NCBI GenBank assembly: GCA_021372235.1 | Contig: JAJFUW010000060.1 | Location: 1-36,577, forward strand | DNA length: 36,577 nucleotides | Direction of reading: 5' to 3' | Source: Spirochaetia bacterium | GTDB taxonomy: Bacteria; Oederibacteriota; PGYV01; Palsa-1178 | Part shown: in pieces, positions 8,300 to 16,120 of the stretch | Layout: every line of letters begins with the position of its first letter | Position numbering within the stretch: the first letter of the stretch is position 1 | Translations under genes and position numbers: made by a program | Notes under the pieces: generated by a model | What the model saw: only the letters and a program-made list of their open reading frames with translations | The model's database searches: none | What the model was told of the DNA's origin: nothing

Positions 8300-8746
8300 A
8301 TGACTCCAAAAGATAACAAGGACAAAAAAGAGGGACAGGCCAAAGAGCCGGCGGAACTGCTGGAGATAATAAAAGACAGGGATAAGAACATAAGCCTCCC
8401 CAAAACCCTACTAAAAAAAGAGGAGTGGGGCTTGCTAACCATATTAAGCCTTTTGCTTGCCGGGATATTTCCCGCCTATTTTGTGAACATACTGCTCATA
8501 TCGTTTTTTACGGAGGTCGGGCACCTGGTTACGACGCACATGACGGAAGTGGAGCGCAAGCGTCTGATCGAGTTTGAAAAGGAGTTCAGGATGGGTTATG
8601 ACCTGGAATCAAAAGGCGACTGGGACGGGGCGATAAAAATATACAAAGAACTGGCCCCGAAGTATAAAGATAACAAAAAAATAGAGGGCATTGCCATACA
8701 GCGTGTCGAATGGATAGAAAAGAACCGTTCGAAGGGAAGGGGATAG
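8300..8746 (+). CDS. Membrane-anchored protein with TPR-like C-terminus
   Basis: A 148-aa product of unknown function. A charged N-terminus (about 1-43, rich in Lys and Glu) precedes a hydrophobic stretch at about 44-75 (GLLTILSLLLAGIFPAYFV and on) that could form one or two membrane helices. A soluble C-terminal part (about 84-148) resembles a TPR hairpin, with the pattern GYDLESKGDWDGAIKIYKEL. The ATG has GGGGG upstream. The next gene begins 3 bases after the stop and is also a TPR protein (a sigma-54 activator), so the two may interact at the membrane. That interaction is inferred from position and the shared TPR character. Confidence 0.7.
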   Translation: MTPKDNKDKKEGQAKEPAELLEIIKDRDKNISLPKTLLKKEEWGLLTILSLLLAGIFPAYFVNILLISFFTEVGHLVTTHMTEVERKRLIEFEKEFRMGYDLESKGDWDGAIKIYKELAPKYKDNKKIEGIAIQRVEWIEKNRSKGRG

Positions 8747-8749
8747 CAG

Positions 8750-10576
8750 GTGTACTGCGAAAACTGCGGCACCAAGGCAGAAGAGGGTTCGAAATTTTGC
8801 GGCAAATGCGGCAGGCAGTGGAAGGACATATCCCGGTTAAAAGCGGAAATAGAGGACGGATTAAAGAGCCGCAGGCCGGACGGCCTCGCTGAAAAAATAA
8901 AAGCGATAGAGGAAGAGACAGGCAAAGAAGATTTCATGAAACTAAAAGGGGACCTGGCTTTTGTAAAAGGCAATTACCGTGAATCCTATGAGGACTACTC
9001 GGGCATACCGTCCGTGGCCAGGCCGTGGGACGTGCTGTTCAACATGGCCTTGATCGACATATCTGTGAACAGGCAGGAACAGGCGGTAAAAAACCTCGAG
9101 ACCCTGATATCCGCTGACGTGGACCCGTCAAAAAGCGTCCTCTACTCGGAAAAATACAAATCCAAAAAGAATTTCTTCGCCGACGTATACCTATACCTTG
9201 GCGTTCTGCACAAAAATCTCGGCCTCTCCACGGAGGCACTCAAATTTTTTGAAAAGGCCCTGCAGTTCAACCCTGACAGCGATCTGGCTAACGCCAACCT
9301 CGGGGACATCTATTTCAAGCAGGATAATTACGATACGGCGATCAGTTGTTATAAAAGGGCTGCCGAGTGCGCGGCCGATGACATTAAAAAGTCCCACATA
9401 CAGAACGACCTGGGGCTTGCGTATTTCAGGAAAGGCCTTATAGAAGAGGCCGTGAGTTCGTTCAAGTCGGCGATATTCCTGAATTCGGATAACAGTAACG
9501 CGGTATATAACCTCGGGCTCATCTATGTGAAAAGCGGCATGCAGGATGCCGTAAAGGACGACTATAAGGAGTTTTTAAAGCACGAGAGCGGTTTGGATAT
9601 CGTTTTTAATTTGTCCCGTTCCATAATGGACGCCGCCAAGCAGGAGTCCATGATGGATATAGGAGTGGAATTCATCGGAACCGATGAATCGGTGAAAAAT
9701 GTAAAGAGTGTGATTTTAAAGGCCGCGGCCACGGATTCTACGGTGCTGATAACGGGGGAGAACGGCACCGGCAAGGAACTGGCGGCCCGCGCCATACACC
9801 AGATGTCAAAACGTTCGGACCGGCCGTTCATTGTGGTCAACTGCGGGGCACTGCCGGAAACCCTGCTCGAGTCCGAACTGTTCGGCCATGAAAAGGGGGC
9901 CTTTACCGGCGCTGTGAGGGAAAAGCCCGGCAGGTTCGAACTGGCAGACAGGGGCAGTGTTTTTCTGGATGAGATAGGGGATATAACGCCCGCCATGCAG
10001 GTCAAACTGCTGCGCTTTGTCCAGCAGAGGGAGTTCGAGCGTGTCGGCGGGACGCAGCTGCTAAAAGTGGATGTGAGGATAATAGCGGCGACGAACAGAG
10101 ACCTGAAAAAAATGGTGGAGCAGGGAAAATTCAGGGAGGATTTGTACTACAGGTTATACGTCCTGCCGGTCATGCTGCCACCATTGCGGGCGCGCGGCAG
10201 GGACGTCCTGCTTTTGGCGGAACACTTCCTGCGCAATTTTTCGGAAAAAAACAGGAAGGTTTTCACATCAATATCGGAGCGGGCGCAGGAGGCGTTTTTG
10301 TCATATTCCTGGCCGGGAAATGTGCGAGAACTTGAGAATGTGATAGAAAGAGTGGTAAGTTTAAATGACGGGCCTGTTGTGGAATTGGATAACCTGCCTG
10401 ACGAAATAACGGCGGGCAGATTCAACGATGAAAAAACTGTCAAAGAGTACGGGGAAAAAGAGGTAATACTTAAAGTACTTGAGGACACAAAATATTCAAA
10501 AACAAAAGCCGCAAAGGCGCTGGGTATATCAAGGGTTGCGTTATGGAAAAAAATGAAGAAATTGGGGATGCAGTAA
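8750..10576 (+). CDS. Sigma-54-dependent activator with zinc ribbon and TPR sensor
   Basis: A 608-aa transcription activator. A zinc ribbon opens the protein (C3, C6, C17, C20). TPR helices fill about 60-300, including [20 protein letters not shown]. The AAA+ domain (about 305-540) has Walker A GENGTGKE (336-343), the sigma-54-contacting GAFTGA loop (383-388) and Walker B VFLDEIG (404-410). A Fis-type helix-turn-helix (about 569-606) closes the protein. It lacks a receiver domain, so the TPR/zinc-ribbon part probably senses a partner or ligand. The start is GTG behind AAGGGAAGGGG. A consensus sigma-54 promoter with phased upstream palindromes lies 200 bases downstream (10773-10790) and is its most obvious target. 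Confidence 0.93.
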
Positions 10577-10588
10577 ATGGGCCCAGGG

Positions 10589-10637
10589 TTCAAGACTCAA
10601 GACTCAAGACTCAAGGCTCAAGGCTCAAGGCTCAAGG
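10589..10637. repeat. Heptanucleotide tandem repeat (CTCAAGA/G)
   Basis: Seven perfect-length 7-bp units are seen: TTCAAGA, two of CTCAAGA, then four of CTCAAGG, starting 13 bases after the activator stop. This resembles the short tandem heptanucleotide repeats known from intergenic DNA of heterocystous cyanobacteria and several environmental genomes. A 10-bp direct duplication (GATAATAATA) follows at about 10649. Confidence 0.85.
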
Positions 10638-10685
10638 CTTTCATCAAGGATAATAATAGATAATAATAAGAGAAACTTCAATCGC

Positions 10686-10722
10686 GTTAACATATTGTTA
10701 ACTATATGTTAACCAAGTTAAC
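10686..10722 (+). promoter_or_regulatory. Four phased GTTAAC palindromes (candidate activator sites)
   Basis: GTTAAC occurs at 10686, 10697, 10708 and 10717, with centre spacings of 11, 11 and 9 bp, so all copies face nearly the same side of the helix. The array ends about 50 bases before the -24 box of the sigma-54 promoter. That is about 75-115 bases upstream of the expected start site, the usual place for enhancer-binding protein sites. Confidence 0.65.
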
Positions 10723-10772
10723 ACCAACGAAATAAAAATCCAAAATACATCAATAATATATAATGTATAATA

Positions 10773-10790
10773 TTGGCATGGGTATTGCTT
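10773..10790 (+). promoter_or_regulatory. Sigma-54 (-24/-12) promoter
   Basis: TTGGCATG-GGTA-TTGCTT fits the sigma-54 consensus YTGGCAYG-N4-TTGCW. The GG at 10775-10776 and GC at 10787-10788 are exactly 10 bases apart. Transcription would start near 10799-10800, directly before the AGGTGA ribosome binding site (10802-10807) of the 61-aa gene. TATAAT strings nearby (10759, 10766, 10792) are not paired with good -35 boxes. Confidence 0.75.
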
Positions 10791-10811
10791 ATATAATAGT
10801 GAGGTGATAAT

Positions 10812-10997
10812 ATGACATTTGAATGTACGGTAAAAAGGGGGCATACAGGCGCCGGTAAGTTTAATGAAGCGAAAATATATATAAGTGCTTCCAATATATT
10901 GCAGGCAATGGATATAGCAAAAAACAGGGGTGGAGTAAAGAAAGGTAAGTGTAATATGTACGGGCAGTCGATATTATCGATAAAACAGGTGCAATAA
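10812..10997 (+). CDS. Small protein of unknown function (61 aa)
   Basis: The product is basic and has no membrane segment or signal peptide. It starts MTFECTVKRGHTGAGKFNEA and ends with QSILSIKQVQ. The Gly/Lys-rich first third and a central helix (SNILQAMDIAKNRGGVKKG) suggest a compact alpha/beta fold, perhaps nucleic-acid binding because of the Lys/Arg content, but I recognise no family with certainty. The ATG has AGGTGA five bases upstream. It is the only gene between a sigma-54 promoter and an intrinsic terminator, and it lies next to a sigma-54 activator gene. This indicates a separately controlled small protein. Confidence 0.7.
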   Translation: MTFECTVKRGHTGAGKFNEAKIYISASNILQAMDIAKNRGGVKKGKCNMYGQSILSIKQVQ

Positions 10998-11081
10998 AAA
11001 AAGTACTAAAAGCAGAAAGTGTATGTGCTGCAGGATTTTATCCGGCAAATATTAAACCTGCATCCGGGAAGTCAATGTGGG

Positions 11082-11103
11082 GCCGGCTCAAAGCCGGCTT
11101 TTT
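11082..11103 (+). terminator. Intrinsic terminator after the 61-aa gene
   Basis: GCCGGCT (11082-11088) pairs with AGCCGGC (11092-11098) over a CAA loop and is followed by five T. A second possible stem (TGCAGG at 11029-11034 with CCTGCA at 11057-11062) lies between the gene and the terminator. Confidence 0.8.
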
Positions 11104-12970: not shown

Positions 12971-15900
12971 TTAACGTTCAAATTCCATATAATACAAAAG
13001 GGCTTTTGAATTCTCGTCTGTCTTGATAATGACGGTGTTCTTATCCGGTGTGGTGTAATTTTTGTACTCGTCCTTTTTATAGTTGTTGGCGTCCAGCCTG
13101 TAAATCTTAACCGATTTGAACCTTTTAACGTTTATCTTCAGGGTAGAATACACAGGTTCTATGAGTATGGGTGAAGTCCCCCCGAAAATGACGGAAGTAT
13201 GGGCCGGCGAGTATTTTGTCCGCGAATTGTCTATCCTGGCCGAAGTGTTCAGCACCAGCCTTGAGGAACCTGTCACAGGCTCGTTGTCGAGCGAAGCAAG
13301 GAAGATGGAGGCATAGTTGTTCGACGACTTTATTTTTATGTTTCGGAACTTGAGCCAGTCTTTTTCAGCACTTAAAAAGCCCATGGCGCCCTGGACCTTT
13401 TCGGTCGTTACCTGGAAAATGCCGCGGCTAAAGTTCCAGTAGAGCTCGCCGGAAAGCGAGAGGGCCGTGTCCTTTTTCAGAACCGGGTTGAACTTTTTAT
13501 CCTCCATGGCAGGGTCAAACGTCTTGTACGACCTCATCATGAGCGGGGTGGTATAGTCGTCATTGATGAGCTTGTACGAGGAGTCCTTCGTAAAGAAAGC
13601 GTCGTTATCGGAGGAGTAATCCACGATTTTTTCCTGCGTGGCCGAGACGGCGCCTGCCCTGTATATGAGGACGGCTATCGGCCAGTTCGAGATGGTATCG
13701 GGCCATACCGAGAAGTCCGCGAAATGGGCTATGTATTTTTTCCACTCATAATTCGAAAAATTGAACTGCAGCATTGCGTCCCAGGCGTTTAAGGAGGCGT
13801 AGGAGGCCATCAGTATCGGGGCGCCCGCACGGAACTCGTTGGGCACCAGCGCGTTCCACTCGGAGCATGTGAAGGGTTTTTTGTATATCCTGGCGTGGCC
13901 GAGTTCCGTCACGGAGTTCATTTTGGATTTTATCATGGGCAGGTTCTTAAAAGTTATGTTTTCCTGCATGGTCCACCCGCCCGAGGGGTGGTCCCAGTAG
14001 GAGTGGCGGTCTATGAAATCCAGGGCCGCGTTGGCGCGCAGGTCCGGGTCCCACAGCTCCCAGTGGTTGGAGCCGGTGATGAGGCCTTTGAAACCGAGGC
14101 CTTTCATGTGGCCGTACATTTTTTTATAGAACGCGTACTCTGTGGCGTAGTAGAATTCCTTGGTATCCGCCCCGCGGCCGGAACAGTTCGAACCGAACAT
14201 CATGGCCCAGTCATCCCGGTTGATCCTGAACATCTCGCGCCTGACCGTGCCGTTGTTAAAATCCTCGTTATCGCCCAGGTCCGAGTCGCCGAACCTGTCC
14301 CACTCCCGGCGCAGGTTTGACATGTTCTTGTATTTCTTTTTCAGGAAGTCGTTGAACATGGCGTTTAACTTCTGCGTGTGGCGCCGCGGTATCTGCTTGT
14401 TGCTCTCCCAGTAGAACAGCGACGTCTCGTTCACGGTCTCGGACATCACTATGGCAGGCTCGTCCTTGTATGCCGTGGCGGTGTAACGGTTGACGTGGTT
14501 TAACAGGTTTGTCATGTACTCGCGCGTCAACTCTTGCAGTTTCTCATCGACGAAAATGACCTCCTTGAAACCGAGCGGTATTTTGTCAAAATCAGCCATG
14601 CCGTCGCCCTTTTTGAGGCCGCGGTGGACGAGCATATCCATGAAAACATAAATGCCGGCGTCTTTTAATTTGTATATCAGGTAGTCCAGTTTTTCCAGCG
14701 AATCCTCTGAGAATGTCCTCGTATCGTCAGCTGTTTTATCGAATATCGACGGCTCGGCCCATGGCGCGTCCATGTGGTGCAGCCTCACCAGGTTAACCCC
14801 GAGTTTGGAAAGCCTTTTTACCATTTTGTCCGTTGCGGCATGGTCCCTGAAAACATCACCCGCAACCAGGTTGGTGCCCCAGAAACGCACGGGCGTGCCG
14901 TCGGAAAAGGCGAGCGAGCCCTCCTCGGTTGCCGTGATGGGGCCGTGTTTGCCCGCGGGCCTGTCCTGCAGGTAATTGAAATCGATGGCCGCGTCGGCCG
15001 TATAGCGGTCCTGCTCAAATTCAAATGGCCACCAGCCCGTGCGGTCCTCTTCCTTTGGTACCTCCGGCAATACGACGTTTCCCTTTTTGTCCTTGCAGGT
15101 CATTTTCAGGCTGTCGAGCCACATGGTGCCGGAACAGTTCAAAAGCCCCGCCGATACTATTATATTCTTTGAGCCGGCGGGCACAACATAATCACGGGAC
15201 CACTCCGTCCACGTATCCATATTATAATCAGCCTCACCTGTGACGGGAGGCCACCAGTTGTTGACCAGCTCGCCATTTTCATCGCGGAACTCGACCGATA
15301 TCCTGGCTTTTTCCCAGACGTTGGCGCCTGCCGTGACCCCGGAGACCTTGACATAGCCGGAGATGGTGACGGAGAAGATTTTTGACGTGTCTACGGGCAC
15401 CGACTGGGTTATCATGGAGTAGGGGTTGGACGGGTTATATATCCTGAAACATGTGGCGGAATCATGGCCGGGCGATTCAAAGACAGCCTCGCCGGCGACC
15501 CAGCCGCCCCAATACAGGGGGAGAGTGGAACCGAATTCCATACCACCGTTTAGGAGCCAGTTATCAGGGTCGCGTTCTATGATGAGGTTATTGCCGTCGG
15601 TGACCGAAACGGCGTCGAGCCACATTTCGCCCGTGCAGTTGGTGAGCGAAGGCTGTATCTTCATGGTGCGCGCATTATCGGGCACGTTTATGACGCAAAC
15701 CTTTTGCGCCCAGTCAAACGAGCCTTTCCAGCGGCCGAGTTCGGGCCAGCCGCCCACCTGTGCGCCATCCCTGTCGTAAAAGAGCACCATCACACGGGCC
15801 ATTTCCCAGTCTTCTCTGCCCTTCACTATATCTTTTATCTTTACAAGCGCTTTGACGGTCACAACCCGGGTCTTTTCCGGGTCTATGATGACAGTCTGGG

Positions 15901-16120
15901 TGATGTCGTTGTAGCGCGGGGCGGGGTTTGACATGTACAGGTAAAAATTATCCGGCGCGGCGACAAGGGTGACCCCGTCAGAGAGCACGGGAACCCATGG
16001 CGCGAGGACGCCGCCGCCATCGTCAAAGGTGCCGTTTTTTATGAGATTTTCAGCTTCTGCGGCCAATACAACATTGACGGAGAGGAGCAATAACGAGAAT
16101 ATAATGATGCCTTTTTTCAC
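12971..16120 (-). CDS. Secreted glycoside hydrolase with two N-terminal CBM-like domains
   Basis: A 1049-aa exported enzyme. A signal peptide (about 1-20, MKKGIIIFSLLLLSVNVVLA) is followed by two similar beta-sandwich domains (about 24-175 and 186-345), each starting with a GTFDDGG- or GGMEFGS-type motif as in CBM4/9-like carbohydrate-binding modules. The catalytic domain (about 360-810) looks like a clan GH-A (GH5-like) TIM barrel: FWGTNLVAGD near the start, a VRLHHMD strand, the likely acid/base E565 in SETVNE and the likely nucleophile E754 in CSEWN. A beta-rich tail follows. The substrate is unknown; a plant or microbial beta-glycan is plausible. The start is GTG behind AGGAGG on the - strand. 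It is transcribed alone. Confidence 0.85.
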   Translation of the reverse strand: MKKGIIIFSLLLLSVNVVLAAEAENLIKNGTFDDGGGVLAPWVPVLSDGVTLVAAPDNFYLYMSNPAPRYNDITQTVIIDPEKTRVVTVKALVKIKDIVKGREDWEMARVMVLFYDRDGAQVGGWPELGRWKGSFDWAQKVCVINVPDNARTMKIQPSLTNCTGEMWLDAVSVTDGNNLIIERDPDNWLLNGGMEFGSTLPLYWGGWVAGEAVFESPGHDSATCFRIYNPSNPYSMITQSVPVDTSKIFSVTISGYVKVSGVTAGANVWEKARISVEFRDENGELVNNWWPPVTGEADYNMDTWTEWSRDYVVPAGSKNIIVSAGLLNCSGTMWLDSLKMTCKDKKGNVVLPEVPKEEDRTGWWPFEFEQDRYTADAAIDFNYLQDRPAGKHGPITATEEGSLAFSDGTPVRFWGTNLVAGDVFRDHAATDKMVKRLSKLGVNLVRLHHMDAPWAEPSIFDKTADDTRTFSEDSLEKLDYLIYKLKDAGIYVFMDMLVHRGLKKGDGMADFDKIPLGFKEVIFVDEKLQELTREYMTNLLNHVNRYTATAYKDEPAIVMSETVNETSLFYWESNKQIPRRHTQKLNAMFNDFLKKKYKNMSNLRREWDRFGDSDLGDNEDFNNGTVRREMFRINRDDWAMMFGSNCSGRGADTKEFYYATEYAFYKKMYGHMKGLGFKGLITGSNHWELWDPDLRANAALDFIDRHSYWDHPSGGWTMQENITFKNLPMIKSKMNSVTELGHARIYKKPFTCSEWNALVPNEFRAGAPILMASYASLNAWDAMLQFNFSNYEWKKYIAHFADFSVWPDTISNWPIAVLIYRAGAVSATQEKIVDYSSDNDAFFTKDSSYKLINDDYTTPLMMRSYKTFDPAMEDKKFNPVLKKDTALSLSGELYWNFSRGIFQVTTEKVQGAMGFLSAEKDWLKFRNIKIKSSNNYASIFLASLDNEPVTGSSRLVLNTSARIDNSRTKYSPAHTSVIFGGTSPILIEPVYSTLKINVKRFKSVKIYRLDANNYKKDEYKNYTTPDKNTVIIKTDENSKALLYYMEFER

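Follow-up and report, generated by a model that had tools for sequence, protein, structure and literature searches.

The DNA analysed here, a stretch of 36,577 nucleotides (contig JAJFUW010000060.1, forward strand; hereafter the window), carries the gene of a sigma-54 activator followed by a repeat array, a -24/-12 promoter and the gene of a 61-aa basic protein. This unit is probably a one-component sigma-54 switch dedicated to one local target, the product of which acts together with the activator's sensor. The make-up of the unit, its conservation in the uncultured phylum (Ca. Goldiibacteriota) and the fusion of sensor to product in some members are observed by sequence and conservation. Array, promoter, small gene and terminator together span 10686-11101, and the elements were annotated as follows.

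8300-8746, plus strand: 148-aa protein with a hydrophobic stretch, preceding the activator gene
8750-10576, plus strand: sigma-54 activator with zinc ribbon, TPR sensor, AAA+ domain (Sigma54_activat) and Fis-type HTH (Pfam, translation, orthologues)
10686-10722, plus strand: GTTAAC array of four sites (10686, 10697, 10708, 10717), a predicted upstream activating sequence
10773-10790, plus strand: -24/-12 promoter TTGGCATG-GGTA-TTGCTT (TTGGCATG-N4-TTGCTT), score 32/32, shuffle p 0.001
10800, plus strand: transcription start predicted from the usual sigma-54 geometry, about 24 nt past the -24 GG
10801-10808, plus strand: Shine-Dalgarno GAGGTGAT, read from the sequence
10812-10997, plus strand: 61-codon ORF of the 61-aa basic small protein with a GHxGAG loop, predicted beta-beta-alpha-beta fold
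11079-11101, plus strand: intrinsic terminator GGGGCCGGCT-CAA-AGCCGGCTTT with T-rich tail, 1 found versus 0.6 expected in shuffles

A preliminary description of the stretch had reported a zinc-ribbon/TPR sigma-54 activator ending at 10576, four GTTAAC sites spaced by 11, 11 and 9 bp, an exact -24/-12 promoter and a 61-aa gene followed by a terminator. All of these were recovered, the activator by Pfam and translation, the array with those spacings, the promoter with a perfect score and the ORF with a terminator-like stem behind it. The regulatory reading given there is supported overall by the presence of RpoN, by promoter conservation at 11/11 loci and by the array in the source order.

Activator and conservation of the locus

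The activator contains a Sigma54_activat domain (Pfam, 1.1e-71), with a GAFTGA loop in the translation, and a C-terminal Fis-type HTH (HTH_8, 1.4e-12), the features looked for in a bEBP. Its zinc ribbon (CxxC...CxxC) has a Pfam score of 23.6, just below the cut-off of 25. Activator orthologues are 61-64% identical. The 148-aa protein encoded ahead of it gave no Pfam or NCBIfam match, and a homologue of it lies directly upstream of the activator or fusion in all loci that reach that far, including those of two genomes outside the phylum (G172 and G309).

By profile search the small protein was found in 12 of the 14 genomes of the source order and in three distant genomes of the phylum, giving 15 phylum genomes in total; the two order genomes lacking a match are 86% and 61% complete. 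A full-length activator lies directly upstream at all 11 readable unfused loci, the G024 locus, which begins at a contig end, being left out of activator and promoter counts. The gene order rpsO, pnp, araM-like, 148-aa protein, activator, small protein is maintained throughout the order and, for the most part, also in the distant G023 and G025. As read from these sequences, the whole unit of activator, array, promoter and small gene is inherited together. A gene for a large CBM-bearing protein of secreted type (12971-16120 in the window) lies near or adjoins the small gene in families f1 and f6 and in G038.

Sigma-54 promoter

The GG of the window promoter falls at 10775-10776 and the GC at 10787-10788, in agreement with both GG-N10-GC and the consensus TTGGCAYR-N4-TTGCW. 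The pattern TTGGCRYR-N4-TTGCW had 5 matches in the 2.38-Mb assembly versus 0 for the reversed control. The 120 bases preceding each small gene received a weighted -24/-12 score, with consensus weights set from general knowledge, against a background of 1000 dinucleotide shuffles; 183 other ORFs of at least 200 codons from the same loci served as controls. A GG-N10-GC box was present at 11/11 unfused phylum loci with readable upstream sequence, 10 of which scored at least 30/32 (p 0.001) and the remaining one, in G025, 26 (p 0.02), and none of the 183 control ORFs reached 29. Since the homologues had been found by protein sequence alone, this test is independent of their discovery.

RpoN is encoded in the source genome (two PF04552, Sigma54_DBD, matches of 1e-52 and 2e-36) and was found in 42 of 45 phylum genomes. 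Retention of the boxes by homologous pairs was a check proposed in the preliminary description, which also named a missing rpoN gene as a ground for refutation; both results speak for the promoter. The Sigma54_DBD matches lie at G000:C31:91-564 and G000:C41:1456-1905, one of them at a contig start, and may represent two RpoN paralogues.

Other strict -24/-12 sites were seen in the assembly. At L010 (G000:C55, minus strand from 1501) the site TTGGCACGGGTATTGCT is followed after about 90 bases by the MAKVIGIDLGTT start of a dnaK-like gene, which suggests sigma-54 control of this chaperone gene. Further strict sites at L011, L012 and L014 (G000:C92, C150 and C182) precede genes named by reading alone as gatC-like, a UvrD-like helicase and a 122-aa PilZ-like protein.

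Array upstream of the small gene

Simulating the intergenic region that holds the array 20,000 times under a Markov-1 model never gave three or more GTTAAC. The seven further GTTAAC elsewhere in the window are all dispersed, and a search of the 2.38-Mb assembly for three GTTAAC spaced by 11 bp, tolerating up to 3 mismatches, gave no second match. In a scripted test for a chain of four hexamers 9-11 bp apart, the array was significant (p < 0.05) in 8 of 9 order members. The repeat unit is GTTAAC in families f1 and f5 and GTTTAC in f2 and f4, and GTTGCA-like repeats at 10-12 bp, outside the script's spacing limit, were seen by eye in G036. Where order members have a clear four-site chain, the start of the last repeat lies 58-77 bp upstream of the -24 GG.

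The array sequence appears to vary along with the recognition helix of the activator, SRVALW being paired with GTTAAC, SRMALW and SRVALY with GTTTAC, and NRSTLW with GTTGCA (by eye), a correspondence that spans few independent lineages. Such co-variation is what binding of the array by the activator would predict. The sites had been described earlier as enhancer sites of the neighbouring activator; the conservation of the array and its shift with the helix agree with this, and binding is predicted from sequence. The stress then laid on palindromic sites applies to the window, where GTTAAC is a palindrome, but palindromy is probably not essential because the GTTTAC unit of related families is non-palindromic; the conserved property, as far as these sequences indicate, is direct repetition at intervals of about one helical turn.

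Outside the order, the repeat array was not seen in the distant phylum member G023, and G025 carries an upstream dyad, ATGTCCG-N5-CGGACAT, with a shuffle p of about 0.15. Convincing palindromes were few in scans for single dyads upstream of loci outside the order. Between activator and array the window holds short tandem repeats of CAAGACT/CAAGGCT type (10590-10640), which were not found in the intergenic regions of relatives.

Homologues outside the phylum

Among 384 genomes searched, nine outside the phylum encode small-protein homologues; those of G393 and G389 came from an additional search. A -24/-12 box scoring at least 29/32 was present at 8 of the 13 loci examined outside the phylum, 5 of these 8 lying behind an activator gene. 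Upstream of the small gene, G172 and G309 encode the 148-aa protein and a zinc-ribbon/TPR activator at 35-36% identity. In G287, G393 and G389 the small gene has a -24/-12 box, and the gene upstream encodes an activator of receiver-AAA+-HTH type that lacks TPR. G078, G223 and G357 have the box, but no activator was seen directly upstream; at these loci (L079, L080 and L081, family f50) a TGTCCCAAATGGGACA-type sequence, found repeatedly at about 250 bases from the small gene on its upstream side, is likely to be an activator site. No -24/-12 box was found at the other five loci, three in G214, one in G191 and the second copy in G172, which means that sigma-54 control is not universal in the family. 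Two of the three homologues in G214 (L076, L077 and L083) carry a C-terminal C2H2-like zinc finger.

The small protein

Most relatives share a GAGGTGA-like Shine-Dalgarno, and GH-x-G-x-G as well as a Lys of the VKKG region are among the residues invariant in the family. The AlphaFold2 model is a beta-beta-alpha-beta fold (mean pLDDT 85.6), for which Foldseek returned archaeal ribosomal protein LX/eL20 and RNA polymerase epsilon (YkzG) as the nearest solved folds at a TM-score of about 0.6 and E-values of 0.19 or worse.

Several assignments of the family were considered. Its members lie below every Pfam-A cut-off and have no convincing PHROGs or NCBIfam match. Identity with LX/eL20 or RNA polymerase epsilon was rejected on those E-values and the lack of a sequence match. 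Several members match DUF4288 (PF14119) weakly along a common stretch (E about 0.003); with 18.2 bits against a cut-off of 27 for the best member among the matches listed, and with no match for the window protein itself, the assignment was rejected, and DUF4288 may be kept as a weak lead. The match to L7Ae is short, confined to a VKKG-like stretch and not significant (E 0.075). A phage or mobile origin was rejected, as phage records and viral contigs held no relatives. The Rfam search of the window returned no known RNA element, and a limited search of open-access full-text literature returned nothing on the family.

Basic charge and fold class in the model weakly suggest RNA, the ribosome or RNA polymerase as the target. 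The product may be an effector that binds one of these and, once the sensor fires, changes translation or transcription, a reading to which we give somewhat less than an even chance. It draws on the net charge of the Goldbacteria members (+5 to +10), the predicted fold and its nearest neighbours, the VKKG motif and the position of the locus beside rpsO and pnp. Against it, the Foldseek E-values are poor, small beta-beta-alpha-beta folds are common and gene neighbourhood is weak evidence.

Fusion of sensor and small protein in family f6

In G042, G043 and G044 (family f6) the small protein forms, in-frame, the C-terminal end of a protein of about 340 aa, the N-terminal part of which is the activator TPR region (42-43% identical to that of the window). 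These loci lack zinc ribbon, AAA+, HTH, array and promoter, with a significant -24/-12 score in 0 of 3 fusion genes. The alignment of fusion and activator breaks exactly where the sensor region ends, and one deletion that began within the activator gene and ended immediately ahead of the small gene would remove AAA+, HTH, array and promoter together. Loss of RpoN was rejected as the cause, RpoN being found in 2 of the 3 f6 genomes.

Pairwise dN/dS within f6 was 0.06-0.09 for the TPR part and 0.03-0.04 for the small domain, versus 0.2-0.4 for the linker, and thus both parts are under selection and the linker is looser. In a structure model of the fusion, built from an alignment without small-protein rows, the TPR solenoid was confident, the linker disordered and the small domain of low confidence; the placement of that domain is therefore uninformative and no docking is claimed.

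The fusion with the TPR region, in which the transcription machinery is dropped, suggests that the small protein functions next to or on the TPR domain, either as feedback partner or as effector. The earlier proposal of a regulator or effector for the TPR sensor is strengthened to this extent by a natural fusion, and the molecular role within it is the inferred part. If the product is an effector, the fusion could make it directly sensor-gated, which we likewise hold at a little below even.

The other candidate role, which we entertain tentatively, is feedback: by binding its own activator's TPR sensor, the small protein would turn that activator down (like PspA on PspF) or up (like RtcAB on RtcR), making the unit an autoregulatory loop and not an output pathway. 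This would accord with the in-frame fusions in three genomes and with a single target, the array being unique in the assembly. There is also precedent among sigma-54 targets. A passage of PMC3128695 describes PspA, the product of PspF's sigma-54 target, in complex with PspF, and in a passage of PMC9650030 the products of RtcR's targets, RtcAB, bind the activator's sensor domain. Against feedback, f6 has no AAA+ or HTH, yet sensor and small domain are both kept under selection, so the small domain there does more than regulate an activator; moreover, the activators of G287, G393 and G389 have a receiver domain and no TPR.

It is very improbable that array and -24/-12 box arose by coincidence in AT-rich intergenic DNA and that the small gene uses a sigma-70 promoter, for although the region holds 8 sigma-70-like matches versus 3.1 expected, this reading was already largely refuted and is rejected on conservation, with exact GG-N10-GC spacing at every one of the 11 loci, no control ORF at 29 and an array found once in the assembly.

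Proposed mechanism

For the dedicated sigma-54 switch we infer array binding, RpoN dependence, TPR sensing and a role for the product as follows. A signal would be sensed by the TPR region, possibly together with the 148-aa protein encoded next to it, and the activator would bind the array via its Fis-type HTH. The activator hexamer would then spend ATP, opening the RpoN polymerase complex at 10773-10790, and a short transcript ending at 11101 would result. The small protein would act in the sensor's own pathway. A wider proposal, that the GHxGxG family is the output of dedicated sigma-54 switches in several lineages, a sensor-coupled factor acting on the ribosome, RNA or RNA polymerase and wired either transcriptionally or, once the activator parts are lost, by sensor fusion, is conceivable but less likely than not.

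Comparison with known systems

The unit resembles PspF-PspA in that a sigma-54 activator would drive a neighbouring target. PspF is not known to have an N-terminal sensor, whereas the activator described here has a zinc ribbon and TPR sensor and a single downstream target, and its product is unrelated to PspA in size and fold. With RtcR-RtcAB it shares a local sigma-54 target; however, the RtcR sensor is a CARF domain and not TPR, the RtcR targets are two enzymes and not a 61-aa protein, and the NCBIfam RtcR model scored 306 bits on the window activator, far below its cut-off of 650. NtrC-type regulation is approached in the three genomes outside the phylum where a receiver-AAA+-HTH activator lies directly upstream of a small-gene homologue that carries a -24/-12 box, but a receiver domain is absent from the window activator.

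A unit conserved in the phylum and made up of a single sensor-activator, array, promoter and tiny protein, the last from a family that is sigma-54 driven elsewhere behind another type of activator, would point to an undescribed response, and the f6 fusion, in which transcription is replaced, yields a concrete, testable statement about the product's partner. The kind of sigma-54 switch is already known; what is new is the sensor architecture, the output of one small protein and the bypass by fusion.
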